This document shows positions 4,681 to 57,567 of a DNA stretch of 64,000 nucleotides, piece after piece (position 1 is the first letter of the stretch; every line of letters starts with the position of its first letter). Origin of the DNA: Costus lasius. Its lineage: Eukaryota; Streptophyta; Magnoliopsida; Zingiberales; Costaceae. Location: NCBI GenBank assembly GCA_027563935.2, contig CM050447.1:82755461-82819460 (forward strand). Direction: 5' to 3'. Position numbers and translations under genes: made by a program. The notes beneath the pieces were generated by a model. The model was not told where the DNA came from. It made no database searches and saw only the letters and a list, made by a program, of their open reading frames with translations.

Positions 4681-4692
4681 CAAGTGGGAGAT
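4681..4692 (+). other. Polypurine tract of copia-1
   Basis: CAAGTGGGAGAT lies immediately before the 3' LTR and is repeated before the copia-2 3' LTR (50111-50122). It is the expected plus-strand primer site and has the usual copia form. Confidence 0.7.
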
Positions 4693-24308: not shown

Positions 24309-27300
24309 GAGACGGCAATACCGCCTCAACCCGCTGCGAACGCCGCAAGGGCGGTTCGGGATGCTTATGAGAAGCATGTCAATGATAGCATTGATGTCGC
24401 TTGCCTTATGCTTGCGTCTATGACGCCAGAGCTACAGCGTCAGCATGAGGATTTATCTGCTATTGAAATTATAGCAAATCTCAAGATGCTGTATGCTGCA
24501 CAGGCAAGGACAGAACGCTATAACTTGACAAAACTTTTCTTTCAGAGCAAACTGACTGAAGGAAGTCCAGTGGGAGCTCACGTACTCAAGATGATTGGGT
24601 ACAAAGAGGCTCTAGAGAAACTGGGACACACCGTCAATCAGGAGCTTGTTGTAGACATCATCTTGCAGTCTCTCCCGGCCTCTTTCGATCCGTTCATCAT
24701 TAATTTTAATATGAACAAGATCGACTGTACACCGGCAGAGTTACTGAACATGCTCTGTACTACAGAGCAGACTCTTGAGAAGGGAAAGCCTTCATCCTCT
24801 GTCTTGATGGTTCCTTCAAGGAACAAGAAGAAGGGGAAGAAGGGCAAAGCCCCTATCAAGAGCTATAACAAGGCTCTGAAACAAAAGGTGAAGCGGTCGA
24901 AGGACAACAGATGCTTCCATTGTGGCCAGCTGGGTCACTGGGAGAAGGACTGTAAAGCGCTCCAAGGAGACAAGAAGGGAAGCAAGGCTTTCACTTCTGG
25001 CTCAGGTATTTTTGTGACTGAAGTCATGGTATCTTCTTCTATTTCATGGGTGTTGGACATTGCATGTGGAGTTCACATTTGTTCAAATGTACAGGAACTC
25101 AAGAGAAGAAGACAGGTGGGACAGCATGAGGTGGACCTACGAGTTGGAAACGGAGCACGGGTTGCTGCTGTTGCTGTAGGACAATATAACATCTCTTTAC
25201 CATCTGGTCTTGTATTAGAACTGGACAATTGTTATTTTGTACCGAGCATAACTAAGAATATTATCTCTATTCCTGCTCTTGTCAGGAAAGGGTTTTCCTT
25301 TGAATGCAAAACTTTAAAGTGTTGTATTTCATTTGATAATATTGTTTATGCTACTGGGTCGATTAACAATGGGTTATTCATGTTGGACATGGAATGTTCT
25401 GTACAACAAATTGATAATAAGAAAGCCAAGTATGCTGATGACAGCACCTTGCTATGGCATAGTCGTTTAGGCCATATTAACAAGAAGCGCATTAAGCGGT
25501 TGCATGACCATGGACTGCTGGGATCATTCTCCTATGAGGAGCTTGATACATGAAAAGCTTGTTTAATGGGTAAAATGACGAAGTCTCCTTTTTCTAATAA
25601 AGGTCAAAGGGCTTCAGGTTTACTTGACCTCATTCACAGTGATGTGTGTGGGCTGTTTAGTAAACATGCCAGAGGTGGCTATTTATACTTCATTACTTTT
25701 ACTGATGATTTCAGTAGATACGGTTATGTCTATCTTATGAGACATAAGAGTGAATCTTTTGACAAGTTCAAAGAGTTCAAAAATGAAGTACAGAATATGT
25801 TAGGCCGAAATATCAAGGCACTTCGTTCAGATCGAGGTGGAGAATACTTGAGTCGAGAGTTTACTGACTATCTGAAGGAGTGTGGGATTATCTCACAGCT
25901 CACTCCGCCAGGAACACCGCAATGGAATGGTGTGTCCGAGAGGAGAAATAGAACCTTATTGGATATGGTTCGTTCAATGATGAGTCAGGCTACTCTACCT
26001 TACTCCTTTTGGGGATTTGCACTGGAAACAGCTGCAAAGGTACTAAACCGAGTGCCATCCAAGGCCGTTTCTAAGACTCCATATGAGTTATGGTATGGGA
26101 AACAGCCGAGCTTGACATTTATTAAAATCTGGGGTTGCGAGGCTTATGTCAAAAAGCTCGTCTCTGGGAAACTGGAGAGCAGATCTGATAAATGTATCTT
26201 TGTCGGTTACCCTAAGGAAACTAAGGGTTATTATTTCTTTGATCCCAAGGAGAACAAAATATTTGTTGCTCGAACGGCTATTTTTCTTGAGAAGGAATTT
26301 CTTCTGCAAGAGGCCAGTGGGAGAGAAATAAAGCTGGATGAGAATCTAGAAGAAGGACAAAGTAGTCAAACTCAGTTGGATGTGCCTGAGCCAATAAAAC
26401 AGGTTACTGAACAACCTGAGGCTCAGATATCACGGGAACCGCGAAGATCGGGAAGGATCCGTCGACAGCCTGAGCGCTATGACGGAGTCTACATCATTAA
26501 TGATGAACCCCTCACTTATGCGGATGCAGTCAGTGGACCGGAATCAGCGAGATGGCTTAGAGCTATGCGAGCCGAGATGGACTCCATGTCAGATAACCAA
26601 GTCTGGGATTTGGTTGATCCGCCTCAGGGAGTAATCCCTATAGGCTGTAAATGGATCTTCAAAAAGAAGATTAACATGGATGGTAACGTGGTTACCTATA
26701 AAGGCAGGCTAGTTGCGAAAGGTTTCAAACAAATCTACGGGATAGATTATGATGAAACTTTCTCTCCTGTAGCCATGTTCAAGTCTATTCGGATTATTCT
26801 CGCGATAGCAGCATATTATGATTATGAGATCTGGCAAATGGATGTGAAGACCGCTTTCCTTAATGGAAAACTAGAAGAGGATGTGTATATGACACAACCT
26901 GAAGGTTTCATCAATCCATCAGATCGTCATAAAATATGCAAATTAAAGAAGTCCATTTATGGACTTAAGCAAGCATCGAGAAGCTGGAATATTCGTTTTG
27001 ATGAATCAATCTGTGAATTTGGTTTCATCAAAAATGAAGATGACCCGTGTGTATATAAGAGGTTTAGTGGGAGCGTGATTATTTTCCTAGTCCTCTACGT
27101 CGATGATATCTTGATCATTGGAAACGATATTCCTGAACTGCATGCCGTTAAAGCATGGTTAAGAAAATGTTTCCAGATGAAAGATTTAGGAGAAGCAGCC
27201 TATGTATTAGGTGTGAAGATCTACAGAGATAGATCTAAGAGGCTTCTCGGGCTGTGCTAGAGTACTTACATCGATAAAGTCCTGGAGAGATTCCATTTAG

Positions 27301-27587
27301 AAAATTCTAAAAGAAGATATCTTCCAGTCAGACATGGTCTGAATCTTTCTAAGAGCCAGTGTCCTCAAACACAGTCTGAGAAAGATGAAATGGACAATAC
27401 GCCTTATGCTTTGGCTATTGGATCCATTATGTATGCGATGTTGTGTACTCGCCCAGACGTCGCTTACGGGTTAAGCGTCACCAGTCGATTCCAAAGTAAT
27501 CCAGGTAAGGCACACTGGATTGCAGTCAAGAACATTTTGAAATATCTTCGGAGGACCAAAGATATGTTCTTGATATATGGAGGTCAG
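24305..27587 (+). pseudogene. copia-2 gag-pol, truncated at both ends, two stops
   Basis: It starts inside gag (equivalent to about position 904 of copia-1) and is 90 percent or more similar to copia-1. The zinc knuckle is CFHCGQLGHWEKDC; the protease motif is DIACG, where copia-1 has DTACG. A TGA at 25551-25553 replaces a Cys codon (TGC in copia-1) in the HHCC region. The frame resumes through the integrase core (IHSDVCGL, SDRGGEY, GVSERRN) and reverse transcriptase with YVDD. A TAG at 27258-27260 stands where copia-1 has a Gln codon (CAA). The copy ends at GGTCAG (27582-27587) in RNase H, where gypsy sequence takes over. Confidence 0.93.
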
Positions 27588-29809
27588 CCAGTGTCCTTGG
27601 GCATGTGATTTCTGGTCAGGGGGTGTCTGTGGATCCAGTTAAAGTGCAAGCCATCCTTAATTGGGGAAGACCGACTAGTGCTACTGAGATCAGAAGTTTC
27701 CTGGGTCTAGCAGGTTACTACCGGAGGTTTGTTGAGGGATTCTCCAAGCTGGCGGGTCCTTTAACTAAATTGACCAGAAAGGAGGCCAAGTTTAATTGGG
27801 ATGACAAGTGTGAAGAGAGCTTTCAGGAGCTAAAGAGAAGGTTGACTAGTACACCGATCCTCATTATTCCTAGTGATGGGGAAAGGTTTACTGTCTATAC
27901 GGATGCTTCAGGCAAGGGGTTGGGTTGTGTCTTGATGTAGAAGAGTAATGTGGTAGCTTATGCTTCGAGACAACCGAAGGAGTATGAGTTGAACTACCCT
28001 ACTCATGACTTGGAGTTGGCGGCCGTAGTCTTTGCTCTGAAGATATGGCGTCACTATTTGTTGGGTCAAGAGTTTGATCTGTTCACTGACCACCAGAGTC
28101 TCAAGTACATCTTCACTCAGAAGGAGTTGAACATGAGACAGAGAAGATGGATGGAGTTGATCAAAGACTATGACTTCGCTATTCAGTATCAGGCTGGAAA
28201 GGCCAATGTAGTGGCTGATGCACTGAGCAGACATCCAGTTACTTCAGTAGCGGCACTACGGGTCAGTGAGTGGCAGTTACTGCAGGAGTTCCGAGATCTC
28301 AGGATCAGTGTTTCTCCTAGAGTTCAGTCGGGTTATGTGGCTTTCCTCAGAGTACAGTCTGTTTTGTTGCAGAAGATCAGAGATCAGCAGTCTGTGGATC
28401 CGAAATTAGCTCAGATCAGGGATAGTTTGGTTGTGGGTGAAGTTCAGGATTTTAGCTTGTCTGATGATGGTGTTCTCCGGTTCCGTGGAAGGGTGTGTGT
28501 CCCTGAGGAACCGAGCTTGAGGAAAAAAATATTGGAGGATAGCCATAACTCCAAATATTCTCTACACCCTGGTGTGACTAAGATGTATCAGGACCTTAAG
28601 AAGAGCTTTTGGTGGCCGGGGATGAAGAAAGAGGTAATCGATTTTGTCTCTAGGTGTTTAACCTGTCAGACTGTAAAGGCTGAACACCAGAAGCCTGGTG
28701 GTTTGTTGCAGCCCCTTCCTATTCCTGAGTGGAAGTGGGAATGCATCAGTATGGACTTTGTGTGTGGTTTGCCCAGAACCAGATTGGGTCATGATGCTAT
28801 TTGGGTGATTGTTGATAGACTCACTAAATCAGCCCACTTTCTCCCGATCAAGATGACTTATCCTTTAGAGAGATTGGCTAGGTTGTACATTGATGAGATA
28901 GTCAGACTGCATGGAGTGCCTGTTGATATTGTGTTTGATAGGGACTCTCGGTTTCTATCCAGGTTTTGGAAGAGTTTACAGGAGGGTTTGGGTACTAAGT
29001 TGAATTTTAGTACAGCATACCATCCTCAGTCTGATGGCCAGACGGAGCGTACTATCCAGACTTTAGAAGATCTGTTGAGAGCTTATGTGGTTGATTGGAG
29101 TTCTGAGTGGAACCGGGATCTATCTTTGATAGAGTTCACCTATAATAATAGCTTCCACTCCAGTATTCAGATGGCTCCTTATGAGGCTTTGTATGAGAGA
29201 AGGTGTAGGACTCCCTTGTGTTGGGAGGAAACTGGTGATAGATTGATTTTGAGATCTGATGCAGTACAGGAGACTACTGATAAGGTCAAAGAGATTCAGG
29301 ATAAACTGAAGATTTCTCGGGACAGACAGAAGAGTTATGCTGATGACCGTCGTCGTCCCCTAGAGTTTATGGTAGGGGATCATGTCTTCTTAAAGGTGTC
29401 ACCGACTAAGGGTGTTATGCGGTTTGGCAAGAAAGGAAAGCTGAGCCCGAGGTTTGTGGGACCTTTTGACATTATTGAGAGAGTTGGTCCAGTGGCTTAC
29501 AGGTTAGCTTTACCTCCTGCTTTGGAACATTTGCATAATGTATTCCATGTTTCTACTTTGAGGAAGTATCATCCTGATCCATCTCATGTATTGGAGTTGG
29601 AACCTCTTCAGATTCAGAGTGATTTGACCTTTGAGGAAAGACCTCTCCGGATTGTGGATAGAAAGGATAAAGTTCTGAGGAACAAGTCTATACCTTTGGT
29701 AAAAGTTATCTGGGGAAATCAGTCGGTTGAGGAGGCGACCTGGGAGACTGAAGCTGAAATGAGGAGGTTGTATGCTTATCTTTTTGATGATATGAATGTT
29801 GAGCTTTAG
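27588..29809 (+). pseudogene. Tekay-5 pol 3' part: RT end, RNase H, integrase, chromodomain
   Basis: The protein begins at LGHVISGQG (end of reverse transcriptase). RNase H follows with [11 protein letters not shown] and VVADALSR; a TAG at 27938-27940 interrupts it where Tekay-3 has Gln. Integrase shows the HHCC region ([16 protein letters not shown]) and [30 protein letters not shown] as the DDE core. The C-terminus ([16 protein letters not shown]) is a chromodomain, which in this group is thought to direct integration to heterochromatin. The frame otherwise stays open to TAG 29807-29809. Gag, protease and most of reverse transcriptase are gone. Confidence 0.92.
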
Positions 29810-29825
29810 AGGACTAAAGCTTTAT

Positions 29826-29838
29826 AAGGAGGGAGGAA
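29826..29838 (+). other. Polypurine tract of Tekay-5
   Basis: AAGGAGGGAGGAA abuts the LTR start TGTAAGATCC at 29839. Tekay-3 has AAGGAGGAGAGGA in the same place. Confidence 0.75.
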
Positions 29839-30334
29839 TGTAAGATCCAAGGATCTTAAGTCCTTGTAAGTATTATTCTTGATTTAAATCTTTGACTGTG
29901 ATATTTTATTTTTTTGATTTAAATAAAATCATTGGCTGTGATATTTTTCTATGTTTTGATTTTGTAAACGCTAGGATGGGGGAGAGTTTTATCTCTAAAA
30001 CCTTTAGGGGTTATTTATAAATTAGTGGCAAAGGGTTAGTGGATATTAATTTAAGTCTTAATGGATTTTGACCCTAGTAATTAATTAATTAGAGCTTATT
30101 GGATGTTAATTAAATCCTTATTGGATTTTCGCTTAAGTGAATAATTAATTATGGGTTATTGGGTTTACACTTAAATTAGATGGATTTTGGGTTTAAAATT
30201 TGAATTAATCAGTAAGTGGGTTAATTCATAAACCCTATTCGAATTAATTAGTTAGCGGGTTTAAAAATTTAAAAAAAAAAAAAAACGAAAATCCAAGGGG
30301 GGGCGGACGGCTAGGGCAAAGAAGTTGGCGTTTT

Positions 30335-30416
30335 GGCTTGAAGGCTTGGGCGATTTCTTGAAGGCTTGGGCGATTTCTTGAAGGCTTGGGCGATTTCTTG
30401 AAGGCTTGGACGAATT
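30335..30416 (+). repeat. 20-bp tandem repeat in the Tekay-5 LTR
   Basis: Unit GCTTGGGCGATTTCTTGAAG, about four copies, the last diverged. Confidence 0.9.
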
Positions 30417-31326
30417 TTCTTCTTCCTCTTCTTTTTCCCTTGGCCGGCGTCTTTGGTGTTTGGTGGCGTTTCTCTTCCTTTGGTGGCATCTACCTAAGAA
30501 CATCAAGGCCTTTAGACGAGTTTGTGGAGAGAACATCATCTTGGTGTTCACGGTTCAAGATAAGAGGTGAGTGGGGTGTCTTATTCGATTTATACCCATT
30601 TGTTTGTGTTAGATGATAAGTTTGATTGCTTGATAATTTTACCATGTTAAAAACCGAAACTCAAGGTGTATCTTTCATGAAAACCGAAATCTTGCAACAT
30701 GAATTTTACAATATTTCTTGTATGGAATTTAGGTAGTTTTAAGTCAGTGATTCTTGTGCATGAAATTCTTATTAACTAAGGTTTAATTTTTAAGTAGATA
30801 ATATGCTAGTAATTGTAGGAACCATGGGCTACATGTGGTATTATGTGTTTAATGTTAATTTTATGGATGCCCTGATAAATGCTAATAATGTTATAGGATC
30901 CATGATTTTTTTCTCTATGTGCAACATGTTATATATTTATGGCCATGTATCCTTGTTTGAGAAACTTGGGTGATAACTTAGCAAGGTTATACTAAACTGA
31001 TCAGCATGAAACCTAAGGACACTACACTACATTATGTGGTTATATGTGGTTTCGAATGTTATGTGTTGTGGTCTGTGTACCCATTATGGATAGGACTAAG
31101 GCTAAGTGTAACTGTGTACTCTAGGGGATAGTCTATATGTGATATGTTAGGGGTTGGAGATTTCAGCCCGGTGTATTGTGATATGTGAGGGGTTGATGTT
31201 TCAGCCTGCCTGTTGTGATTATCGTGATGAAAATGACTATCCTAGAGTCTGGTTGACACTTAGGAGTCCACTTTTGTGAAATAGGTGTGTCTAGTGGTTG
31301 TTCAGTAAAGAACCCTTTGGGAGAAC

Positions 31327-31389
31327 GAGTGATTGATGCAAAGTGCCATGTCTTGGTCGGACAGGGGCCACCTCTTGATTTCATCACTC
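31327..31389 (+). other. Structured hairpin a in the Tekay-5 LTR
   Basis: Outer arms GAGTGAT (31327-31333) and ATCACTC (31383-31389); conserved core CAAAGTGCCA then TGTC, a 7-nt loop, GACA, GGGGCCACCTCTTG. It is the sense-strand version of the four units in the Tekay-3 LTRs, with different arms. Confidence 0.65.
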
Positions 31390-31420
31390 TTAGACTTTTA
31401 GATTTTTGTGTTATGGGGTG

Positions 31421-31476
31421 GTGTAGATCAAGGTATCACATCTTGACCGGATGGGGATCACCTCTTGAGTCTACAC
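31421..31476 (+). other. Structured hairpin b in the Tekay-5 LTR
   Basis: Outer arms GTGTAGA (31421-31427) and TCTACAC (31470-31476); core CAAGGTATCA, inner arms CATC and GATG around a 7-nt loop, then GGGATCACCTCTTG. Arms differ from hairpin a but pair perfectly. Confidence 0.65.
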
Positions 31477-32449
31477 ACCGTCCATGTTTGTGTTGCATGT
31501 GATTTGCAGGCTTCTCCCAGTGCTTAGGCCAGAGCCGGGTTGGACCCTAGTGGTCACTCTTGATTTATGCTGAACAACTAAGTGGTTGGTGTGTTTAGTT
31601 GGTTTAGAGTATGGCTCTAGATCCTTTGTTACTCTATGGTGTCATTTGTGTGATGCCTTAGCAGTGTTCATCTGATTGTTTATATGATTTCCTTTCTTTG
31701 CTTTTGTTATATGTTGGCATGATGTTCTGTTAAAGGTTTTTAAAATAATCTGCATGTATTTTTAAGTGTATATTATGGATGGTCGATTAAGACTATCCAC
31801 TCACTGGGCTGTGTAGCTCACCCCTCATTATTTTCAGGTGTAGAGCAGGGGCGCATTGCCTGAGTTAGTGTATTGTGATTTTCCCTACAACTATGCTGGT
31901 TTGATGTACAAGACTTTTGTGCTTAGTTAACTGGGGTCAGTTATGGCCAAACCTTGTGAACTCGTGATGCCGGTTGTGGCAGTTTGAGATTTTGATTTTT
32001 GTGTCACCGCGAGCTTGGGCCTGGTTTCGGTGTTTGATATCATTGACGTTAGTTTTATGAAATTATAAAATCGATATTGTGGTTTTTGCTTCGAAATTTG
32101 AGTCGAATTGTATTTGCGATCGGATTTGATATAAATGTGAACTTGCATATGTCTAGTGCAAGTATTGCCTGGTGGCAGGTACCCTTACGTGATTTATGGA
32201 TTTTACGGATTTTATGTGGTTTTGATATAACTGTTGACTTGCATATGTCTAGTGCAAGTATTGCGTGGTGGCAGGTACATTTGTGAAATTATGTTTCGTG
32301 GAGATTCTATGTATGGATTCTCAAAAATTTTCAGATCGGGTTTTCCTGAACTTGGTTTTACTTAGCGTGTGCATCGATCCTGTATGATAACATCCTGATC
32401 CTCTATGACTTGTGTTGCTTGTTTGGGGTTAAGATAACGGGATGTGATA

Positions 32450-33493
32450 AAATGAGTCCAATGCAAGAAGCGCCATCTCATCCAAGCAAAGAAGGAAGGA
32501 GCCCAAGAGAATTCGGCTACAAGAAAGAAAGAATTTGAAATTCAAAATTGAGGATGGAAATGTTTTAATTGAGCATTAATTTCCTCCATAATGTTGTGAT
32601 TTGCGCCTAGGGTGAATTGCCACCCTTGCCCATGGCTTGTTGAGCCTATAAATTGTAACCTCCCCTCTCTTTGTCTATTAGTTGCCTAGATGAAAAAAAA
32701 ACCTTGTGTTAGCATTGGTGCTTGTGTCGCCTAAAGAATCTTCTACCTTCCCCTATCCTCTAAAGGGCCGAGCCCTTTCCCTTCTCCCCCTTCCTCTCAA
32801 GTCCTCAATGCATCCAACTCCTTGAAGGATCTCTTACACATCTTTGGCGAGCCCTAAAGAAGGATCTTCAACCTTGGTCTCGGCCAAGCCTTAGAAACTT
32901 CAACACTTTCGGCCAACAAGGAGACTTGCATCAAGAAGACCTCTTCGGCTAAGTTCTTTCCCCTTCACCTTCTTTAAATCTTTAGAGCTTGGTTCTACAC
33001 TAATCTGAATTTTGTTTGAAGGTGGCGCAAGAACTTGAAGGGTTCTTCCCTAAGCGTATGGCTTTTCTTCTTCCCCCTCTCTCTCTCTTTAGTTAAAGTG
33101 TTAAGGGAACTTGTGAGGCTTAACCTCCCCCTTAGTTTTAATTTGTAATATGAATCCGTGGTGTGTACGGATCTCGTTTGTCTGTGTTTGCTTGTAATGA
33201 TGCAATACCTTCCATCAGAGTAGGACCGTTGAAGACCGGGACGATACGATCCTTCTATTCTCAAGGATCGCACTGTGAGTATTCCTACTAGTCTTTCAAT
33301 TCGTAGTTTAAAGTGCTCTTTCTTTTAGTAGTCTTCAATAACTTAGTGTCGTTTTCTCTATTTATAAAATACAAAATATATTTTCCAACTCCGTTAGAAG
33401 TAAGTTCGGGTTTTATCAAAAAAATACAAAAAAATATTTTCTTAAAGCGTTGTTTGCATGTACCCTTATTTGTGAGTGATCCCACCTCCATCA
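32450..33493 (+). repeat. 5' LTR of the chromovirus, missing its first ~560 bp
   Basis: It matches 48800-49841 of the 3' LTR nearly base for base and ends CTCCATCA. Its left edge is the Tekay-5 insertion point. A TATA box (CCTATAAATTG, 32645-32655) is retained, so U3 is only partly lost. Confidence 0.9.
32647..32653 (+). promoter_or_regulatory. Candidate TATA box of the chromovirus LTR
   Basis: TATAAAT, with the same sequence at 48996-49002 in the 3' LTR. Surroundings are GC-richer and pyrimidine-rich downstream, as in plant promoters. Confidence 0.5.
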
Positions 33494-33494
33494 G

Positions 33495-36109
33495 TGTAAC
33501 GCCCCTCGATACTTAACCCCGAATTTCACGCGGAAATCATACGAGGAACGTCACGAGAAGATTAAACTAAAAAAAAAACTGAAGCCAAGATCATACTACG
33601 AACAAAGCTAGGGAATAAAAGATCTGAAAAACTTATACAAAAATCCGGCAGCATGTATACGTACATACTAGGTTCGGGAAAATTCCCATACAGGCACATG
33701 CTTTACTGATTCATAACAACAAGTAATTTCAACTTATCAAATACTGAACATAATCGAATCAGATCACAACTCCGTACTATACTTATACGGAGACAAAATC
33801 ACACATCACAGAACAGACTGAACATAAAATCCTATCAAAATGCTGACAAGATACCACAATCGAAATCTTGTAACAAAATGGGCCTAAGCCCTCACATGTA
33901 ACCAAAATACAGCATTCATCATCCAAAACAGAATACTACTAATACAGGCACGCAGGCCCCAGATAACAAAATCAAGATACAAGTATTCAAATACCAAAAT
34001 TGTTTACAAGGTCCATATCACAAAACCCAAAGCTTCATCAAGCTACTCAGTATATCTCAAAGGTGCATAACGCCGTATCAATCACTGTCTCTCACCTGTA
34101 GATTTTAGAGGGGGTGAGCTAACAGCTCCGCAAGTGAGAACCTTATGAAACCCCTCCATTAATACATTCAAAAATAGCATGCAAGGTTTTTCAAAACATT
34201 TACCAAATGCGATTATCAAATATCAAATCAAATACAGATAAGAATACAACTTACAAAATAATCCACATGGCGAAATCCAATCATAATACAACAAAACCAA
34301 AATAGAGACTTACACATCATATGGCAAAACAGAACACATACGTAGATGCACATCCCATCCTAACATATCCAAATCCAGAACAGAACGAAATGACCACAAA
34401 GGTCTGACCCTTCCCTCGTCAGGGCTCGGAGAATGCATGCATGCCAAACAGTAGGGGAGAAATCAGGAGGTGGCCCCCGTCTAGCTAAGACGTGGCACGC
34501 TGATCTCCATCTACCCACTCAGACAATGTGGTAAATCAAGAGGTGGCCCCCGCCAAGTCACGGCGTGGCACTTTGTTTCCCCACATTGGTCACACAGCAG
34601 TCAGAGAGTTCAAGAGGTGGCCCTCGCTTACCAGTAGCGTGGCACTTTGTCTCTCTTATGCTAAACTAATCACATCTGTGAAGGAAGATCAAGTGGTGGC
34701 CCCCGCCTGACCAAGGCGTGGCACTTTGCCCCACTTCACAGTATCTCCAGGGTCACACATAATGGACATGACTTACACCACACACATATAGCAAAAGACT
34801 AATACCCGGATATCTAACTTATCGAACTCACCACTCGCAATTAATTACACAGCATAAATGTTTTAGACAGGGTAGTCCTTAAGTTTCATGCAATCAGGTT
34901 AGGAAGATACCATGCTAAGTTCTCAACACATGTTCCCATGCAGGTATAATGTGTTAATCCTAGATTTCATGCAATTAGATTGTAACATCTACATTCTAGG
35001 TTATCAAACAGAATTTCCACTCAAGCAGATTAATTACAAGCATTGCACACATTACCATCACTTAATTTCAAGAGAACGATTACACATATCACTATGCATA
35101 GGAAATTCCTAAAATTAGGCAAAAATCATATTTAAGTACCATATAAACTCAATTACATGAATAACAGCTTTGCCCCAAAAGTTAACTGAACATTGACCAA
35201 AATACCCCTAGGGCAAATTTCGGCCAGCATGAATTAAGGCTCCAAAAATAGTATAAAATTCATAATAAATTCCCTTATACTTCTAATTTCATGAATCCTA
35301 AGTTTTCCCCAAAAGTTAGCATGAAATTTCATCAATTTAGGGCATGGGCGCATGTCATACTCTAGGGTTTTTCATGAATACATTATACAATCAAATTGAA
35401 GATCAAGATCATGATAACTCATCCTCCTAAGACATCTAATCAAGTAAAGAACGAAAAACCCTATGATTAGAGCCCCTAAATCTGATTTTCGAAACTTCAA
35501 CTAGGCATTCACGGTTTCATGGTAAGGGGAAACTAAACCTACTCGTTTTTCCATCACAAAGCAAGAAAAACATGGTATATACTCGGAATATAGGTAACAT
35601 AAGACTTCCACTCGCCTTGGGAACGATTTGCAAGCAAACCGTGAGCAAGAGAGTCGTCGGAAGCCTCCACACGCCGCCGCCGTCCACCACACCGGAAGGC
35701 CAAGCGCCGCCGCCGGAAAACTCGCCGGAAGAGGGGCTGGACGAAGGGGAAGGCGCGGCTGCAGTCGTCCACGAGAGAGGGGAGGAAGAAACGCAAGGGC
35801 GGCTAGGGTTGGGCTGAATTTCGAAAGCAACTTAAGTGAGATCTTGTTTTAATCTGCATACTCACATAATAAGTAGGCGCCCACATACATAACACAAAGA
35901 CTGGGCTGGAACTCTGGTAGTCAGGACAACATACACAGGAGAGGTCTCAAGTTCAAGACTCCTCCACAGCAACTTATTTTTGCCCTACAGGAGAATAATT
36001 TTTCCCTTAGCCAAAAATCCCACCAACAAGGTTAATAAATGCCTGATTATAGATAATCAAAATGAGTCACCTACCGAGGTTTAATACATCAAAATTCTCG
36101 GGTCTTACA
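33495..36109 (-). repeat. 3' LTR of Tekay-3 (2615 bp)
   Basis: Plus-strand edges are TGTAACGCCCC and GGGTCTTACA; on the element strand it starts TGTAAGACCC and ends GGGGCGTTACA. It contains four tandem covarying hairpins (34456-34740) and a tRNA-like B-box stretch near 35930-35970. Short overlapping frames at 35501-35852 occur identically in both LTRs and are not treated as genes. Confidence 0.95.
34456..34740 (-). other. Array of four covarying hairpins in the Tekay-3 3' LTR
   Basis: Four units: 34456-34508, 34525-34587, 34603-34656 and 34677-34740. On the plus strand units 2-4 share CAAG(A/T)GGTGGCCC, then a short stem-loop, then TGGCACTTTG; unit 1 has a slightly different margin. Inner stems are CGTCT/AGACG, CGCC/GGCG, CGCT/AGCG and CGCCT/AGGCG. 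Outer arms are ATCAG/CTGAT plus GGAG/CTCC, AATGTGG/CCACATT, AGAGAG/CTCTCT and TGTGAAG/CTTCACA. The arms differ completely between units yet always pair, while the core is constant. The array is repeated in the 5' LTR. Confidence 0.8.
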
Positions 36110-36122
36110 TCCTCTCCTCCTT
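36110..36122 (-). other. Polypurine tract of Tekay-3
   Basis: On the minus strand AAGGAGGAGAGGA directly precedes the 3' LTR. Confidence 0.75.
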
Positions 36123-36138
36123 AAAAGGCTTTAGTCCT

Positions 36139-39100
36139 CTAAAGCAAATCGGGAGCAGGTTCAAACAAATGTGGGTAATCCTTTCTCATATCGGTTTCCA
36201 ACTCCCAAGTAGCTTCTTCCACGGACTGATTTCCCCAAATAACTTTCACTAGAGGTATCACCTTGCTTCGAAGGACTCTCTCTTTTCTATCCACAATCTT
36301 AAGTGGCCTTTCGACATAAGTCAGATTTCCATCAATTTGCAAAGGTGTTGAATCCAAGATATGTGACGGGTCATGACAATACTTCCTAAGCACGGATACG
36401 TGAAACACACTGTGCAGATGCTCCAAGGATGGCGGTAAGGCTAATCGGTAAGCAACAGGTCCAACCCTCTCGATGATATCAAACGGACCCACATATCTAG
36501 GGCTTAATTTCCCTTTCTTTCCGAATCGCATCACACCTTTTGTCGGAGAAACCTTAACAAATACATGTTCTCCCACCATGAATTCCAGAGGTCTCCTTCT
36601 CACATCAGCGTAGCTTTTCTGCCTATCCTGTGCAGCCTTTAGCTTTTCTTGAATAATCTTTACCTTATCTGTGGCTTCCTGCACAGCATCAGACTGGAGC
36701 AAGGTCCTATCACCTACCTCCTCCCAACTCAAGGGAGTTCTGCATCTTCTTCCGTACAATGCCTCGTACGGGGCCATCTGGATACTAGAGTGGTAACTAT
36801 TGTTGTAGGTAAACTCAATCAGGGCTAAGTCTCTATCCCACTCACCATGCCAATCAATGATGTAAGATCTCAGCAAGTCCTCCAATGTCTGTATGGTCCT
36901 CTCAGTCTGCCCATCAGACTGCGGGTGATATGCAGTGCTAAAACTGAGCTTGGTGCCCAAATCTTCCTGAAGCTTCTTCCAAAACCGAGATAAGAACCTG
37001 GAATCGCGGTCAGATACAATATCCACCGGAACACCATGCAATCTCACAATCTCGTCAATGTACAACCTGGCAAGCCTCTCCAAAGGATAAGTCATCTTGA
37101 TAGGCAAAAAGTGGGCGGACTTAGTAAGTCTGTCCACGATAACCCAAATAGCATCGTGCCCTTTTCTGGTCCGAGGTAATCCACAGACAAAGTCCATGCT
37201 GATATTTTCCCATTTCCACAGAGGAATCTGAAGTGGTTGGAGGGATCCACCCGGTCTCTGATGCTCGGCTTTAACCGTCTGGCATGTCAAACATCTAGCC
37301 ACATACTGCGCCACATCATTCTTCATCCCTTGCCACCAGAAACTTTTCTTCAGGTCCTGATACATTCTGGTACTACCAGGGTGAATAGAATACTTAGAAC
37401 TGTGGCCTTCAGCTAAAATCTCCTGTCTCAACTTAGGGTCCTCAGGGACACAGACCCTTCCATGGAACCTAAGCAAACCATCTGTGGATAGGTTGAAATC
37501 CTCAATCAATCCCATCTCCAGTTTTTCTTTCCATTTCAAAATTTCAGGATCAACCAACTGTGCTTTGCTCAACTTTTGCAAAATATCAGACTCAACTCTA
37601 AGTGCAGCAACAAAACACTTATTACCACGAGGTGTCACATCCAATCGAAGTCTACTGAACTCATCAAGCAAGCGCCACTCCTGCACAAGAAGTGCAGCCA
37701 TAGAAGTCACAGGCCGCCTGCTCAATGCGTCTGCAACCACATTTGCCTTACCCTCCTGATAGTGAATAGTAAAATCATAATCTTTGATCAGTTCCATCCA
37801 CCGCCGCTGCCGCATGTTGAGTTCTTTCTGGGTAAATATGTATTTGAGGCTCTGATGGTCGGTGTACAAATCAAAAGTCTGACCCAGCAGATAATGACGC
37901 CAAATCTTCAATGCAAACACCACTGCAGCCAACTCCAAGTCATGGGTAGGGTAGTTGGACTCGTATTCCTTTAACTGCCTGGAAGCATAGGCAACCACCT
38001 TACCACGCTGCATGAGTACACAGCCCAAACCTTTGCCAGAGGCGTCCGTGTACACAGTGAAACCTTCACCGCCACTAGGTATAGTGAGAATCGGTGCACT
38101 AGTCAAACGCTTCTTCAGCTCGAGGAAACTTTCCTCGCACTTGACATCCCAGATAAAATCAGCATTCTTCCTGGTCAACTTTGTTAAAGGGCCCGCCAGC
38201 TTGGAAAACCCTTCAACAAATCTGCGGTAGTAACCTGCTAAGCCCAAGAAACTTCGAATCTCAAATGTATTTGTTGGTCTTCCCCAGCTAATAATAGCCT
38301 CTACCTTAGCTGGATCCACAGACACACCCTGTCCAGATATCACATGTCCCAAAAAGTTAATCTTCTCCAACCAGAACTCGCATTTACTGGCCTTGGCATA
38401 CAACCTTTTACTTCTCAGAATTTCCATCACCTTGCGTAAGTCCTGTGCGTGATCTTGAGCACTCCGCGAGTAAACCAAAATGTCATCGATAAATACAACC
38501 ACGCATTTATCCAGGAGATGGTGAAACACCCTATTCATAAGATCCATAAAGACGGCAGGGGCATTCGTTAGTCCAAAAGGCATAACTAAAAATTCATAAT
38601 GCCCATACCTTGTCCTGAATGCTGTCTTAACTACATCCTCCTCCCTGACCTTCAGCTGATAATACCCAGACCTTAAGTCAATCTTGGAGAAGACAGTAGC
38701 GCCCTGTAACTGATCGAAGAGATCATCAATACGGGGCAGAGGGTACTTGTTCTTAATTGTTACCTGGTTCAGCTGACGGTAATCGATGCACATTCTCAGT
38801 GATCCGTCCTTCTTCTTTACAAACAACACAGGCGCTCCCCAAGGAGACGCGCTAGGCCTGATGTACCCTTTTTCTAGCAATTCTTCCAGCTGTTTCTTCA
38901 ACTCAGCCAATTCAGAGGTGGCCATGCGGTACGGGGCTTTAGAGATTGGGGCAGTGCCAGGTATCAAGTCAATACTGAATTCCACTTCCCGGTCAGGTGG
39001 TAAACCAGATAACTCATCAGAAAATACATCTGAGAATTCATTCACCACAGGTATATAAGCCAAATCAGATACAGGTTCATCCTGAACCTTTACATGTGCC

Positions 39101-40746
39101 AAGTAGCCTTTACAGCCGCCAGCCAATAACCTTTGAGCATGTAGGAAAGAGATCACATGTAACCCCTGATCTGCAATCAAACCTTTGATATGCAATTGAT
39201 GACCATCACTCAAATTCAGAGTCACCAACTTTTCAAAACAATCTAGGGTGGCATGGTAAGAGGACAACCAGTCCATCCCTAATATCACATCATAGTCAAG
39301 CATGTCAAGCAATATCAAATCAACAAACAAGTCATATTCCTCTATCCTAAGCATGCAACCAGGATAAAGCACATCTGTTACCAGGGAATCACCCATAGGG
39401 GTGCAGACAGATATAGCACAATCAAGAGTCTCAGGTGCCACAGGCAAATAACGAACAAAATGAACTGATACGAAAGAGAGATTGGCACCAGGATCAAATA
39501 AAACACGTGCTAACTGATCGAAAACAAAAAGAGTACCTTCCACAACTGACTTGGAAGCCCTGGCGTCCTTCTCAGCAATAGCATATACTCGAGTCTGCAC
39601 TGTGGGCTTATCAGTACCCTGAGATGAAGACTTCAGCTGTGGGCAGTCTTTGATACGGTGTCCGGCCTTACCACACCTGAAACAAGCCCCTGACTTCTTA
39701 TAGCAGTCCTTGATCTCGTGACCACTGCTTCCACAATGATAGCACTTTCTGCCTTCCACGGTATCACCTCGGGCAGATTTAAAATTCTTCTGATAGGGAT
39801 GATGCCTACCTTTCTTATCCTTGTGCTTATATTGTTTCTTTTCATGACTCTGGGGAACTGGAGCAGCAGTCTCCACAACAGGGGTTGGGGCAATCACCAC
39901 TGCCTGCTCAGAAATTGACCTCTCCACTGTGAGAGCCCTCTCTAAAACCTCAGCATAGGTCTCTAGATGCAGTGCCACAATCCGATCTCTGATATCTTTT
40001 CTCAAACCCCTCTGAAACTTCCTGGCCCTTAGTTCCTCAGTGCTGACCAAATGGGGAGCATACTTGGACAACTGGGTGAACATAATATCATATTGAGCCA
40101 CAGAAAGGTCACCCTGCACCAGGTGGATAAACTCCACCTCCTTCTCTTCATTCATGCTAGGTGGAAAGTACTTGTCATTAAATTTTCTCATGAAGTAAAT
40201 CCAGTCTACAGTATCCCCTTTTTCAGTTGCTAGCCTCTTAACTCCTTTCCACCACATCTCAGCATTCCCCTTCAGCATATATACTGACAGGCACAGTTTA
40301 TCCTCTTCGCTACATCGCATCACCGCAAAAATCTTATCTAAGTCAGCAAGCCAGTCCTCAGCTGCTCTAGGCCCTGGGCTCCCATAAAAAGCTGGAGGGT
40401 TCATACGCTGAATTTCCTTCACCAGTTGAGCATACCTCTTATGCACATTCTCCTGAGAACTCCCCACATTCTCAGCCGGCTGTGACTGGGAATGAGACTG
40501 TGACTGCATCTGCTGCTGCATCTGCTGGTGAAATTCTTGTTGCTGATCGCGGTTCTGCTGTAAGAGTTGCTGCTGAAACTCCTGATGCTGCTCACGCTGT
40601 TCCCTCATCATCTGTTGCTGTTCTTGCATAGCCTGAGCCTGCTGCTGAATGAGGGCACCCTGTTGTTGAATCATACTACTCATAGACTCTAAAGCCCTCA
40701 TAAAGCCAGCCATCTGATCATCAGCATTACCCTTGGGTCGTACCAT
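36139..40746 (-). CDS. Tekay-3 Gag-Pol polyprotein, 1535 residues, intact
   Basis: Encodes everything needed for retrotransposition. A Gln-rich, probably coiled-coil N-terminus (about 25-95) is followed by the Gag domain (about 105-270) and two CX2CX4HX4C zinc knuckles (about 337-350 and 355-368). The protease has FDPGANLSF near 417, with Pro where D(S/T)G is usual. Reverse transcriptase has FIDD near 752; RNase H has YTDASGKG near 898. Integrase has the HHCC region from about 1114 and the DDE residues near 1183, 1244 and 1279. A chromodomain (about 1485-1530, [12 protein letters not shown]) ends the protein and presumably guides integration to heterochromatin. Start ATG 40746 lies about 155 nt after the primer site. 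There is no internal stop. The Tekay/Del lineage is inferred from the integrase and chromodomain wording. Confidence 0.96.
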
Positions 40747-40881
40747 TCTTACCTAGCAAAAACACCTTGCAAGTCAAGACAAACAATAATTTCCTTATCT
40801 TACTAACAACCAATTCCTTACTTGGTTTATTTCTATGCAATACACAAACAATGTTTTACTACCCAGATCTAATATTCGCTA

Positions 40882-40900
40882 GAAACTCGCTCTGATACCA
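40882..40900 (-). other. Primer-binding site of Tekay-3
   Basis: On the minus strand TGGTATCAGAGCGAGTTTC, two bases after the 5' LTR. The first 12 bases complement the 3' end of plant initiator Met-tRNA. Confidence 0.85.
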
Positions 40901-40902
40901 TA

Positions 40903-43517
40903 TGTAACGCCCCTCGATACTTAACCCCGAATTTCACGCGGAAATCATACGAGGAACGTCACGAGAAGATTAAACTAAAAAAAAAACTAAAGCCAAGATC
41001 ATACTACGAACAAAGCTAGGGAATAAAAGATCTGAAAAACTTATACAAAAATCCGGCAGCATGTATACGTACATACTAGGTTCGGGAAAATTCCCATACA
41101 GGCACATGCTTTACTGATTCATAACAACAAGTAATTTCAACTTATCAAATACTGAACATAATCGAATCAGATCACAACTCCGTACTATACTTATACGGAG
41201 ACAAAATCACACATCACAGAACAGACTGAACATAAAATCCTATCAAAATGCTGACAAGATACCACAATCGAAATCTTGTAACAAAATGGGCCTAAGCCCT
41301 CACATGTAACCAAAATACAGCATTCATCATCCAAAACAGAATACTACTAATACAGGCACGCAGGCCCCAGATAACAAAATCAAGATACAAGTATTCAAAT
41401 ACCAAAATTGTTTACAAGGTCCATATCACAAAACCCAAAGCTTCATCAAGCTACTCAGTATATCTCAAAGGTGCATAACGCCGTATCAATCACTGTCTCT
41501 CACCTGTAGATTTTAGAGGGGGTGAGCTAACAGCTCCGCAAGTGAGAACCTTATGAAACCCCTCCATTAATACATTCAAAAATAGCATGCAAGGTTTTTC
41601 AAAACATTTACCAAATGCGATTATCAAATATCAAATCAAATACAGATAAGAATACAACTTACAAAATAATCCACATGGCGAAATCCAATCATAATACAAC
41701 AAAACCAAAATAGAGACTTACACATCATATGGCAAAACAGAACACATACGTAGATGCACATCCCATCCTAACATATCCAAATCCAGAACAGAACGAAATG
41801 ACCACAAAGGTCTGACCCTTCCCTCGTCAGGGCTCGGAGAATGCATGCATGCCAAACAGTAGGGGAGAAATCAGGAGGTGGCCCCCGTCTAGCTAAGACG
41901 TGGCACGCTGATCTCCATCTACCCACTCAGACAATGTGGTAAATCAAGAGGTGGCCCCCGCCAAGTCACGGCGTGGCACTTTGTTTCCCCACATTGGTCA
42001 CACAGCAGTCAGAGAGTTCAAGAGGTGGCCCTCGCTTACCAGTAGCGTGGCACTTTGTCTCTCTTATGCTAAACTAATCACATCTGTGAAGGAAGATCAA
42101 GTGGTGGCCCCCGCCTGACCAAGGCGTGGCACTTTGCCCCACTTCACAGTATCTCCAGGGTCACACATAATGGACATGACTTACACCACACACATATAGC
42201 AAAAGACTAATACCCGGATATCTAACTTATCGAACTCACCACTCGCAATTAATTACACAGCATAAATGTTTTAGACAGGGTAGTCCTTAAGTTTCATGCA
42301 ATCAGGTTAGGAAGATACCATGCTAAGTTCTCAACACATGTTCCCATGCAGGTATAATGTGTTAATCCTAGATTTCATGCAATTAGATTGTAACATCTAC
42401 ATTCTAGGTTATCAAACAGAATTTCCACTCAAGCAGATTAATTACAAGCATTGCACACATTACCATCACTTAATTTCAAGAGAACGATTACACATATCAC
42501 TATGCATAGGAAATTCCTAAAATTAGGCAAAAATCATATTTAAGTACCATATAAACTCAATTACATGAATAACAGCTTTGCCCCAAAAGTTAACTGAACA
42601 TTGACCAAAATACCCCTAGGGCAAATTTCGGCCAGCATGAATTAAGGCTCCAAAAATAGTATAAAATTCATAATAAATTCCCTTATACTTCTAATTTCAT
42701 GAATCCTAAGTTTTCCCCAAAAGTTAGCATGAAATTTCATCAATTTAGGGCATGGGCGCATGTCATACTCTAGGGTTTTTCATGAATACATTATACAATC
42801 AAATTGAAGATCAAGATCATGATAACTCATCCTCCTAAGACATCTAATCAAGTAAAGAACGAAAAACCCTATGATTAGAGCCCCTAAATCTGATTTTCGA
42901 AACTTCAACTAGGCATTCACGGTTTCATGGTAAGGGGAAACTAAACCTACTCGTTTTTCCATCACAAAGCAAGAAAAACATGGTATATACTCGGAATATA
43001 GGTAACATAAGACTTCCACTCGCCTTGGGAACGATTTGCAAGCAAACCGTGAGCAAGAGAGTCGTCGGAAGCCTCCACACGCCGCCGCCGTCCACCACAC
43101 CGGAAGGCCAAGCGCCGCCGCCGGAAAACTCGCCGGAAGAGGGGCTGGACGAAGGGGAAGGCGCGGCTGCAGTCGTCCACGAGAGAGGGGAGGAAGAAAC
43201 GCAAGGGCGGCTAGGGTTGGGCTGAATTTCGAAAGCAACTTAAGTGAGATCTTGTTTTAATCTGCATACTCACATAATAAGTAGGCGCCCACATACATAA
43301 CACAAAGACTGGGCTGGAACTCTGGTAGTCAGGACAACATACACAGGAGAGGTCTCAAGTTCAAGACTCCTCCACAGCAACTTATTTTTGCCCTACAGGA
43401 GAATAATTTTTCCCTTAGCCAAAAATCCCACCAACAAGGTTAATAAATGCCTGATTATAGATAATCAAAATGAGTCACCTACCGAGGTTTAATACATCAA
43501 AATTCTCGGGTCTTACA
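40903..43517 (-). repeat. 5' LTR of Tekay-3 (2615 bp)
   Basis: Identical by eye to 33495-36109 except one base. It should hold the promoter of the element on the minus strand. Confidence 0.95.
41864..42148 (-). other. Array of four covarying hairpins in the Tekay-3 5' LTR
   Basis: Same four units as 34456-34740, shifted by 7408 bp. In this copy the array lies in the LTR that would drive transcription. Confidence 0.8.
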
Positions 43518-43524
43518 ATCAGTT

Positions 43525-43536
43525 TGGTATCAGAGC
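43525..43536 (+). other. Primer-binding site of the chromovirus
   Basis: TGGTATCAGAGC complements the 3' end of initiator Met-tRNA. It originally stood three bases after the 5' LTR end and is now separated from it by Tekay-3. Confidence 0.85.
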
Positions 43537-43704
43537 CTATCTTAGAATAGAATTTTAGCCTTAAAACTAATTTTCAACTTCTAAGACTTTTCTTGGACCT
43601 AGGTGTTTTAAAGAAGTGGTTTTCATAATCTGCTACTATACTTATCATAATACTTTTAGTAGCCTTATTTTTAAAACTACTCTTCTTTCAAAACTACTAC
43701 CACA

Positions 43705-46700
43705 ATGACTACTAGATCTGGTGCAAACTACAGTAACCACCCTGAAACTGAACCTGACAAGCTTGATAGGATGTATCAAATGATGATAGAAAGGTTTGAC
43801 CAAATGGAAAATAGGATTAATGACTTAGAACATCATAGAGGTTCTAGAACCCCTAGTCACACCTCAAATGGACCCATCTTAGAACCACCCACTCAAAACA
43901 ATAGAGATCTTCCTAGGGAGGACCAAGGACCTGAATGGGAAGAGCCACGTGCTCAACCCTACCACAGACCTAGGGAGGATGAAGTGCAACGCAACATCAA
44001 ACTCTCACCCCCAACCTTTAGTGGTTCCCTTGACCCTAGAGAGTTCTTAGATTGGGTAGACAAGCTCGAACGATATTTTGACTGGAGCATGATGCCTAGC
44101 CGGTCTAAGGTTAGGTTCACCCGATGTCTTTTAGAAGGTACTGCTAGGTTATACTGGACAAGCATAGAGAAGAACATAGAATTGTTTAGGCGCCCTCCTA
44201 TTGAGAGATGGGAAGAGATGCGAGACAAACTTAGGGAAAAATATGTCCCTCCCTACTTCCAACTTAAAATAATTGATGAAGCCATGAGCCTAGTCCAAGG
44301 TAGTCAAACTGTCACCGATTACACCACTAGGTTTGATGAGCTCCTTTTAAGGAGTGGCATCCATGAAGAATCCCATGTCTCCCTTAGCAGGTACAAGAAT
44401 GGACTTAGACCCGAAATCAAAAAAGGAATGACCTATTTCCAAATAGAGTCTAGGGAAGTCGCCTACCAAAGAGCCTTAGAGGTAGAAGAAAACATAAAGA
44501 GAGCTTTTAGGAGAGAGTTAAGTTCCCCTAGAACTTATCCTGAGGCACCCTCCTCAAGCCCCTCAAGCTCTCAACCCAAAGCCCCAACATCAACACCCTC
44601 TAAACCTAGGACTATCCAAGAACCCAGAGTCACTTGCCATGCTTGCCGCCAAGTAGGACACTATATGAAAGACTGCCCCAAGAGAGTCCTGTACTTAGGT
44701 GAAGAAAAATGTGAAGAAACCTATGAGGAAAACCATGAGGAAACCCATAACCCTGACTCTGGATGTATGATTTGTGAAGAACTAGTTTATGATAGTGGTG
44801 AAGAGCAAACCCCCGACACCTTAGGAGTGGTTAGGTGCACCCTAATCAAACCTACCCCAACCGAGGACTGGCGTAGGACCAGTATTTTCCACACCTACAC
44901 GAAATGCAATGGCAACATGTGCAAAGTAGTGATAGATGGGGGAAGTAGTCTAAACGCGGTCTCTCACACAGCCTTAGTAAAATTCAACCTTAAGGCAGAA
45001 CCGCACCCCAATCCCTATAGCATATCCTGGGTCAATCAGTCTAGTGTCCCAGTCACCCATAGGTGCTTAGTGCCCCTTCAGTTTGCCGTCTACCAAGGCA
45101 AGATTTGGTGTGACGTCATAACCATGGATGTCGCCCAAGTCTTACTCGGTCGCCCGTGGTTATTTGACATGGATGTTATCCACTACCGTCGGACTAACAC
45201 CTATGTCTTCAGCCATGATGGGCAAAAGATCAAACTGAAGCCTTCCATGCCTAAGGAACTTAAGGCTTCCACCAATAAAGGTAGGATAGAAGAACCTAAG
45301 GAACCCAAACCTACCATCCAACTCATAAGGCCCCATGCCTTTACCCAGGACTGCTTAGAGTCCAAGCAGGTGTACTCCCTAGTCATTAAGGAAACCAACC
45401 CAGATGATGAGTCGCCCATACCTAAAGAAGTTGAGACCCTACTCTCAGGGTACTCTGAGCTCACTAGAGATGAACTTCCCAATGGGTTACCTCCCCTTAG
45501 AGAAATCCAACATGCGATAGACCTTGTCCCAGGTTCTACTCTCCCACACTTGCCCCACTATAGGATGAACCCCACTGAGCATCAAGAGCTCAAAAGACAA
45601 GTAGATGAACTTTTAGACAAGGGTTTCATTAGGGAAAGCCTTAGCCCGTGTGCAGTACCCGCCCTTCTTACCCCAAAGAAGGATGGAAGCTGGCGCATGT
45701 GCATAGACTGTAGGGCAATGAACAGGATAACCATCAAGTATAGATTTCCCATCCCAAGATTAGATGACATGCTTGACATGCTGGTAGGTTCTAAGTGGTT
45801 TAGCAAGCTAGACCTTAGAAGTGGATACCACCAAGTTAGGATAAGACTTGGGGATGAGTGGAAAACAGCTTTTAAAACTAAGGATGGTTTATATGAGTGG
45901 CTAGTCATGCCCTTTGGTCTTTCTAATGCCCCCTCAACCTTTATGAGAGTAATGAATCAAGTCTTGAAGCCTTATATAGGAAGATTCTTAGTAGTTTACT
46001 TTGATGACATCCTAATCTATAGCAAGACCCAAGAAGAACACATGGAACACCTTAGGAAAACCCTAGATCTACTTAAGGAAGAAAAGTTATACCTTAACCT
46101 GAAGAAGTGTTCTTTCCTCTCCCCTAGGGTTGTCTTCCTAGGATTCATAGTGTCTGACCAAGGACTCCAAGCTGACCCTAGCAAGATCCAAGCCATTTTA
46201 GACTGGCCTGAACCCAAAACTTTGACTGAGATTAGGAGCTTCCATGGTCTAGCTGCTTTCTATAGAAGATTCATTAGAAACTTTAGCACCATAGTAGCCC
46301 CTATAACCAATTGTATGAAACAAGGTGAGTTTAGTTGGCCTAAGTCTGCTGGTAGAGCTTTTGTGGAGCTTAAGTCTAAGATGACCACTGCCCCAGTCCT
46401 AAGATTACCTGACTTCTCTAAAGTTTTTATAGTGGACTGTGATGCCTCGGGAGTAGGAATAGGAGGTACCCTTAGTCAGGAAGGTCACCCCATAGCCTAT
46501 TTTAGCGAGAAATTAAATGAGGCTAAACAAAGATATACCACCTATGATAAGGAATTCTATGCTGTAGTTCAATCTTTAAGGCATTGGAGACACTATCTTA
46601 TACATAACGAATTTATTCTAAATAGTGATCACCAAGCTTTATCTTTTCTAAATGCTCAAAAAAAATTAAATGCTAGACATGCTAAATGGGTAGAATACCT

Positions 46701-57562: not shown

Positions 57563-57567
57563 GTGTC

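Follow-up and report, generated by a model that had tools for sequence, protein, structure and literature searches.

The long terminal repeats (LTRs) of the Ty3/gypsy retrotransposon Tekay-3 and of its relative Tekay-5 carry tandem hairpin units that very probably represent a selected RNA structure, in which pairing is kept while the sequence changes, and this structure is probably read on the sense RNA. Both elements lie in the window, a 64-kb stretch of the 1.28-Gb host genome (G000:C2:82755461-82819460). Tekay-3 is located on the minus strand, with a 3′ LTR at 33495-36109 and a 5′ LTR at 40903-43517; each is 2615 bp long, and the 99.96% identity between them indicates a recent insertion. 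The open reading frame (ORF) between them (36139-40746, minus strand, 1535 amino acids) matches gag, zinc knuckle, protease, reverse transcriptase (RT), RNase H, integrase, and SH3-like domains. Tekay-3 thus has the paired LTRs, the Gag, protease, and RT, and the RNase H ahead of integrase that define a Ty3/gypsy element. Just past the end of the 5′ LTR, at 40900, starts TGGTATCAGAG, a primer-binding-site-like sequence. "Tekay" is a provisional label from the initial sequence reading; at a Pfam threshold of 1e-3, Tekay-3 gave an SH3_Tf2-1 match and no chromodomain row. Tekay-5, on the plus strand, is missing its 5′ part and has retained its 3′ LTR (29839-32449, the 3′ end being an approximate estimate). 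The LTRs of the two elements are homologous and can be aligned at 61-77% around the array.

Read in the sense of the ORF, the unit of both elements consists of an arm, CAAAGTGCCA, a 15-nt hairpin, RGGGCCACCTCTTG, and a second arm, with a few core changes from the CAAAGTGCCA/RGGGCCACCTCTTG form (in T3u1, T3u4, and Tekay-5 unit 2). A preliminary description of this DNA had placed four units at 34456-34740, the same set at 41864-42148, and two Tekay-5 units at 31327-31389 and 31421-31476, and we found the units at all of these places. The covariance model that it had proposed was built from the six units, aligned over 70 columns with 25 modelled pairs (alignment A1). On the 64-kb window, this model recovered ten copies, its own members included, at 69.1-80.5 bits (E <= 2.7e-20), and the next best of the 41 matches listed reached 13.9 bits (E 0.087). 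The units of the Tekay-3 3′ LTR are, in sense order and all on the minus strand, T3u4 (34675-34744, 80.5 bits), T3u3 (34596-34665, 69.1 bits), T3u2 (34522-34591, 73.2 bits), and T3u1 (34449-34518, 73.3 bits). The same set occupies 41857-42152 of the minus strand in the 5′ LTR (41857-41926, 41930-41999, 42004-42073, and 42083-42152), and the two Tekay-5 units are found on the plus strand at 31323-31391 (70.5 bits) and 31413-31482 (73 bits). The Tekay-5 core had been described as the complement of the Tekay-3 core. This was an error, since Tekay-3 lies on the minus and Tekay-5 on the plus strand, and so the same sense-strand unit is present in both.

Within the unit, columns 5-16 pair with 57-68 (P1), CAA/UUG joins columns 17-19 and 53-55, GUGCC pairs with GGC-AC (columns 21-25 with 44-46 and 48-49), and the inner stem P3 pairs columns 27-31 with 37-41. 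The inner stems had been presented as switching between units; P3 indeed varies with its pairing kept, and it is now modelled uniformly as 5 bp with a 5-nt loop, the fifth pair being absent in one unit. Likewise, the supposedly constant core has one length (39 nt in 6 of 6 units of Tekay-3 and Tekay-5), but it is mostly paired itself, interrupted by one bulged C and by two internal loops that are asymmetric, and it covaries too. Unpaired letters that are constant in the six units are A26, G43, bulged C47, C50, and C52, and the motif presented is CAA-A-GUGCC-A opposite RG-GGC-C-AC-CUC-UUG.

Two-sided changes were observed at 19 of the 25 modelled pairs of A1, compared to 9.0 ± 1.9 pairs in shuffled controls (0 of 500 as high as 19) and at most 9 in slid controls. 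Further pair types were less telling (28 versus 24.1 shuffled; 46 of 500 as high). The inner helix was 98.3% paired and showed two-sided changes at 7 of its 10 pairs, and the outer helix was 72.2% paired. The core changes were compensated as well: Tekay-5 unit 2 has GTATC/GATCAC in place of GTGCC/GGCCAC, and in T3u1 core pair 19-53 is G-C, not A-U. The outer arms, which had been reported to be unrelated and yet to pair, behaved in this way, as the assignment of left to right arms within their own unit ranked 1 of 720 permutations and the own partner was best in 6 of 6 units. For a larger test, 56 distinct arm pairs were reduced to 14 mutually different representatives; of 20,000 permutations, 0 equalled the true pairing, with the own partner being the single best in just 6 of the 14. 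The statement that common descent alone hardly accounts for the kept pairing calls for qualification: the units do share descent, because the LTRs can be aligned around the array, and an independent origin of the units was therefore rejected; descent alone, however, gives no account of pairing kept under two-sided change.

Applied to the window and to 44 of 74 loci of the host genome, near-identical loci being mostly omitted, model R1 gave 151 matches at E <= 0.001, of which 150 were aligned (alignment A2; 92 distinct rows). Covariation was kept with these additional copies: two-sided changes occurred at 20 of the 25 pairs, and the covariation score of 0.387 exceeded that of the shuffled (0.194 ± 0.008) and slid controls (at most 0.149). 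Counts of additional pair types in A2 were at the shuffled level (54 versus 53.9; 291 of 500 as high). A2 is fitted to the model, its copies are related, and some loci overlap, so that these counts are not those of independent events. The covariation evidence comes from one genome, that of the host.

The wobble pairs carry information on the strand. G·U folds in sense RNA, A·C equals G·U in antisense RNA, and DNA accommodates neither as a pair; since a palindrome in DNA is strand symmetric, it should be depleted of G·T and A·C alike. In the 92 distinct rows, the core pairs included 82 G·U and 15 A·C (shuffled means, 107.7 and 59.4) and the arms 118 G·U and 19 A·C (shuffled means, 191.8 and 96.2). 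A·C was thus about four- to fivefold rarer than in the shuffles and G·U about 1.3- to 1.6-fold, and the ratio of G·U to A·C was five to six to one, compared to about two to one from composition in the shuffles; base composition accounts for part of the surplus of G·U. A C·A pattern had been used to fetch seven of the loci, and this selection could only have increased the A·C count. When the 70 rows matching any fetch pattern were set aside, 80 rows (42 distinct) remained, including the window rows and those fetched by DNA similarity. Wobbles in these 42 distinct units (98 G·U versus 13 A·C) were more lopsided than in the shuffles, with 164 Watson-Crick, 41 G·U, 3 A·C, and 2 other combinations in P3; 333, 3, 0, and 0, respectively, in P2; and 311, 54, 10, and 118 in P1. 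At pair 29-39, C·A had 7 exact matches genome-wide, one of which is the divergent unit of locus L083 with P3 in another register; U·G was present there in 26 of the 92 distinct rows, a count that has the A2 sample and not the genome as its base. Unpaired A26, C50, C52, and A56 were constant in 42 of the 42 units, whereas C47 was T in 3, G43 was T in 2, and unpaired A20 was C or G in 11 of them.

The summed folding energy was unexceptional under dinucleotide shuffling (sense z-scores of −0.80 and +0.27), and the antisense strand was lower by this measure (−2.23 and −1.06). Minimum energies of single units were lower for sense than for antisense in 64 of 78 distinct units, for which G·U pairing alone is a sufficient cause. 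P3 was present in 6 of 6 single-unit minimum-energy folds, and the lower core helix departed from the model in two of them (T3u4 and T5u2). In the minimum-energy fold of the full Tekay-3 array, the outer stem was open in one of the four units (T3u2), and it was closed in the centroid. The asymmetry of G·U over A·C favors sense RNA over a DNA-level cruciform or protein-binding array, and the DNA cruciform was rejected as the leading reading on this strand bias. The earlier proposal of a structured LTR-transcript module under selection is supported, in its structural part, by the covariation in A2 and by the G·U excess over A·C.

The unit is very abundant in the host genome. One strict form of it alone (first P3 base not C) had 6293 + 6727 = 13,020 exact matches in the 1.28 Gb, and the reversed control had 0 + 0; among the 100 places listed, all were on contig C1 and all had T at the first P3 base. 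A or G at this base gave 9 matches genome-wide, with a compensating partner in 0 of 9, and these are taken as decay. For the Tekay-3 array, 40 of 1199 candidates were scored, and at least 40 copies, among them the two of the window, are 100% identical over 285 bp. One to four units each were found in 38 loci (L011-L048), some of which overlap. Grouping of 49 LTR sequences, including those of Tekay-3 and Tekay-5, resulted in seven groups; the Tekay-3 and L054 groups are 95% alike over 1445 bp, which leaves about six families. Five of these showed 73-80% identity over 0.9-2.0 kb, and Tekay-3 could be aligned at 70% with three of the five, over 213-286 bp, and at 86% with the other two, over just 42 bp. 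Across six LTR families, two aligned cores had mean column identities of 0.93 and 0.83, compared to 0.51 for all Tekay-5 LTR columns, which include ends outside the fetched loci. The best 20-nt windows within units reached 0.97, 0.90, 0.88, and 0.82, a TAGCTCACCCC block beside the acceptor-like site described below reached 0.95, and other blocks reached 0.88; the core therefore ranks with other blocks among the best-conserved parts of the LTR. In viral contigs, the pattern CAAAGTGCCAN{13,19}GGGCCACC matched 10 stretches, seven with one recurrent sequence, and inspection by eye found the unit in none; a search of viral contigs with the Tekay-3 ORF returned 25 stretches and no relative. Prokaryotic genome contigs had 0 matches, and plasmids had no match.

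The array core recurs in two further lineages, represented by loci L083/L085 and L019/L086. The first precedes a Gag that is 42% identical to the Tekay-3 Gag over 170 amino acids; with the Tekay-3 LTR it could be aligned over 51 nt of the array alone, and with the Tekay-5 LTR it gave no alignment at E 1e-3. The second is a repeat (L019:2709-2884, minus strand; 6 kb fetched as L086) without a polyprotein match. It has only the array sequence in common with L085 and nothing in common with Tekay-3 or Tekay-5 besides the end of a neighboring L019-family LTR, which makes any assignment to an element type provisional. New P3 stems appear in these lineages (CACTC/AAGTG, CACCC/AGGTG, CATTA/TAATG, and CGTTA/TAATT), and two of the loops, GCAA and GAAA, are of the GNRA type. 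The motif also appears to be stacked in them: AGTGCTACATGGAG, a complete inner unit, and AATCCATGGGAGCCACC follow one another (as a pattern, AGTGCTA..GGAGCCACC), which would give two motifs per stem, whereas each hairpin of Tekay-3 and Tekay-5 contains a single motif. In the outer stacked motif, the sequence has U-A in place of C25-G44. This stacked reading (L019:2709-2884 and L083) combines the sequence with minimum-energy folds that agree in part alone: in two contexts they share the inner motif and GCU/AGC with an A/GG loop, and they differ further out.

The position of the array within the LTR suggests when it would be present in RNA. It lies about 0.85-1.25 kb before the LTR end, after which the primer-binding-site-like sequence follows (Tekay-3 and L085). 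In Tekay-3, a splice-donor-like AAGGCGAGT, a GC variant, is found upstream of it (35610-35618, minus strand) and an acceptor-like CTACAGGT downstream (34094-34101, minus strand); the Tekay-5 counterparts are AGGTGAGT (30565-30572, plus strand) and TTTTCAGGT (31831-31839, plus strand). Sites resembling AGGTGAGT and TTTTCAGG flank the array in 6 of 6 aligned families, the Tekay-3 versions being AAGGCGAGT, which is displaced in the alignment, and CTACAGG. Among 54 oriented loci, some of them overlapping, a donor-like motif was present upstream in 48, an acceptor-like motif downstream in 51, and both in 46, and the antisense strand of these loci had 0 and 1, respectively. The motifs searched for were absent around the array of L085, and the splicing part may thus be lineage specific. 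The four sites are putative splice sites, judged by their sequence, and they may be used in the RNA of the element. With its location some 1 kb ahead of the primer-binding site and, for most loci examined, within the span from the donor-like to the acceptor-like site, the array would be carried by unspliced RNA alone.

The structure, its selection, its sense-strand bias, and its position are supported by the data; from these we infer a function that would involve transcription, splicing, and a protein partner. In a large group of plant Ty3/gypsy LTR retrotransposons, the array would act in cis as an RNA element. Each unit in the sense transcript would form a hairpin presenting one conserved asymmetric internal-loop motif, in which the unpaired A26, C50, and C52 are fixed and a C is usually bulged, between helices that are free in sequence as long as they pair. 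Fixed unpaired letters, free paired helices, tandem or stacked repetition, and sense wobbles together point to a protein-binding RNA motif. Its repetition (one to four per fetched LTR and two per stem in the divergent repeats) would create a multivalent binding site for a putative partner, either the element's own Gag or a host RNA-binding factor. Retained in unspliced genomic RNA and lost from spliced mRNA, the array would single out full-length RNA for packaging or for export from the nucleus. We give this reading as a whole, a multivalent protein-binding array on unspliced genomic RNA serving packaging or export, somewhat less than an even chance; taken singly, a role in packaging is possible though doubtful, and one in export is rather unlikely.

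Next in rank, and unlikely, is that the array affects RNA stability or translation. As part of a long 5′ leader, the hairpins could steer ribosomes by shunting or internal entry, or those in the other LTR could protect or terminate the 3′ end. The location about 1 kb before the primer-binding site makes a leader plausible, and the sense-strand bias would fit as well. However, a generic hairpin needs neither fixed unpaired letters nor a stackable motif, and use of the splice-like sites would leave the array out of the translated mRNA. The hairpins could otherwise be substrates or decoys for the host small-RNA machinery, in a microRNA-like manner, and not a replication signal. Short bulged hairpins in multicopy elements, as seen here, are typical sources of small RNAs; yet variable helices would yield different small RNAs from each unit, the conserved part is the internal loop, and the element would presumably gain little from processing. 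We therefore regard this explanation as improbable.

A DNA-level element, either a cruciform or a protein-binding array, was the alternative offered in the preliminary description; it would consist of inverted repeats in the LTR and act, for example, as an enhancer or integration mark. For it speak the capacity of inverted repeats to extrude, the strong conservation of the core, and folding z-scores that do not favor the sense strand. This alternative nevertheless appears very improbable, because G·U and A·C are not depleted alike, asymmetric loops and GNRA loops are features of RNA, and a DNA-binding site has no need for arms that are free in sequence and yet paired. Structural selection might also be absent altogether if template switching during reverse transcription or replication copied one arm onto the other and so renewed the palindromes. 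Template-switch events can mimic compensatory change, and the arms do change blockwise with pairing kept. Arm copying would, however, wipe out bulges and wobbles, whereas the asymmetric loops and G·U pairs persist, and the counts so far point to G·U pairs as the intermediates of change; moreover, the core changes are compensated transitions, and homogenization alone predicts no strand asymmetry. We consider this the least probable of the explanations. Multivalent protein binding on unspliced RNA thus remains our preferred reading.

Several known systems resemble the array in part. The MPMV constitutive transport element consists of two equal loops in one long stem, to which the putative stacked form of L019 would be similar, and it is a cis-acting retroelement RNA with a repeated internal loop, as the array would be; as the array would, it travels on unspliced RNA. 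This likeness is one of layout, and the array differs in that its motif is set in separate tandem hairpins within plant LTRs. Retroviral psi lies downstream of the splice donor and is therefore found in unspliced RNA only. The array is similarly predicted, from the sequence, to be a structured RNA downstream of a donor-like site and restricted to unspliced RNA, and Tekay-3 has a zinc-knuckle Gag; unlike psi, it does not lie between the primer-binding site and gag but within the LTR, some 1 kb ahead of that site, and its core is repeated. Retrozymes and hammerhead-ribozyme LTR elements occur in plants and share with the array a conserved RNA fold in LTR-type repeats, but the conserved part of the array is a helix with internal loops. 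No ribozyme model of Rfam matched window positions 30000-43600, L083, or L086, and a self-cleaving ribozyme, hammerhead or other, was rejected. Overall, Rfam 15 gave four chance-level matches in 30000-43600 (best E 2.5, all well under the gathering scores) and no match at E <= 1 in L083 and L086. This agrees with the earlier statement that no such family has been described, as do literature searches for unit sequence strings, which, in the mostly open-access papers covered, returned chance matches in unrelated papers alone. According to PMC10309623, retroelements must export unspliced RNA from the nucleus and package it, and an NXF1-binding MPMV structure is named there; an LTR-derived transport element is described in PMC11379458. 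Excerpts of PMC3601003 link residual LTR conservation to stem-loops in structured R regions and name a Sushi chromovirus model (fungi and fish), with 0 occurrences of "tekay." The array resembles these R regions in that LTR conservation is tied to stem-loops, whereas tandem copies of one motif with free arms are not part of the description in those excerpts (PMC3601003). Topic searches found no such array described in titles or the opening parts of abstracts.

To our knowledge, the marking of genomic RNA for export or packaging in plant LTR retrotransposons is largely unmapped. A compact, covarying, and strand-biased motif with many natural variants provides a handle for probing, deletion, and use as bait in isolating its putative protein partner, and it may serve as a classification marker for large-LTR Ty3/gypsy elements whose LTRs are too divergent to align. 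We suggest, tentatively and with more doubt than confidence, that very abundant plant Ty3/gypsy elements carry in their unspliced RNA a multivalent array for protein docking, built from this undescribed, stackable internal-loop motif and retained across lineages that blastn otherwise cannot align. With at least 13,000 copies in one genome, it may be a plant counterpart of the retroviral packaging and export elements.

Tekay-3 appears to have inserted into another Ty3/gypsy element (window 32450-33493 and 43518-49841), which carries an open reading frame of 1537 aa (43705-48318) and whose LTR-like pieces (32450-33493 and 48799-49841) are 98.9% identical to each other. The covariance model search of the window detected no hairpin unit in these two pieces at an E value of <1. 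Tekay-5 is truncated at its 5′ end near 27597 (window 24408-29857) and adjoins copia-type open reading frames at 24408-25553 and 25566-27260. A repeat of ~1.1 to 1.6 kb was observed in six copies within the window, five direct and one inverted (4688-5772, 10196-11388, 22722-24308, 50123-51720, 56405-57567, and 60690-61887).

Downstream of the array, TAGCTCACCCC and the acceptor-like CAGG site after it (34094-34130 and 31810-31839) showed between-family conservation similar to that of the hairpin cores. Elsewhere in the host genome, one core with C·A at the inner-stem pair 30-38 was found in seven of eight places within G000:C1:19432964-19587326; the eight places are arranged in pairs, with steps of ~49 kb. 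This series probably reflects segmental tandem duplication rather than transposition. At L083, a locus of a divergent lineage, three consecutive copies of the motif 5′ half (AGCAAAGTGCTACATGG, AGCAAAGTGCTACACGG, and AGCAAAGTGCTACACCCC) lie opposite two 3′ halves (positions 1700-1800), as if the array had grown within a stem.
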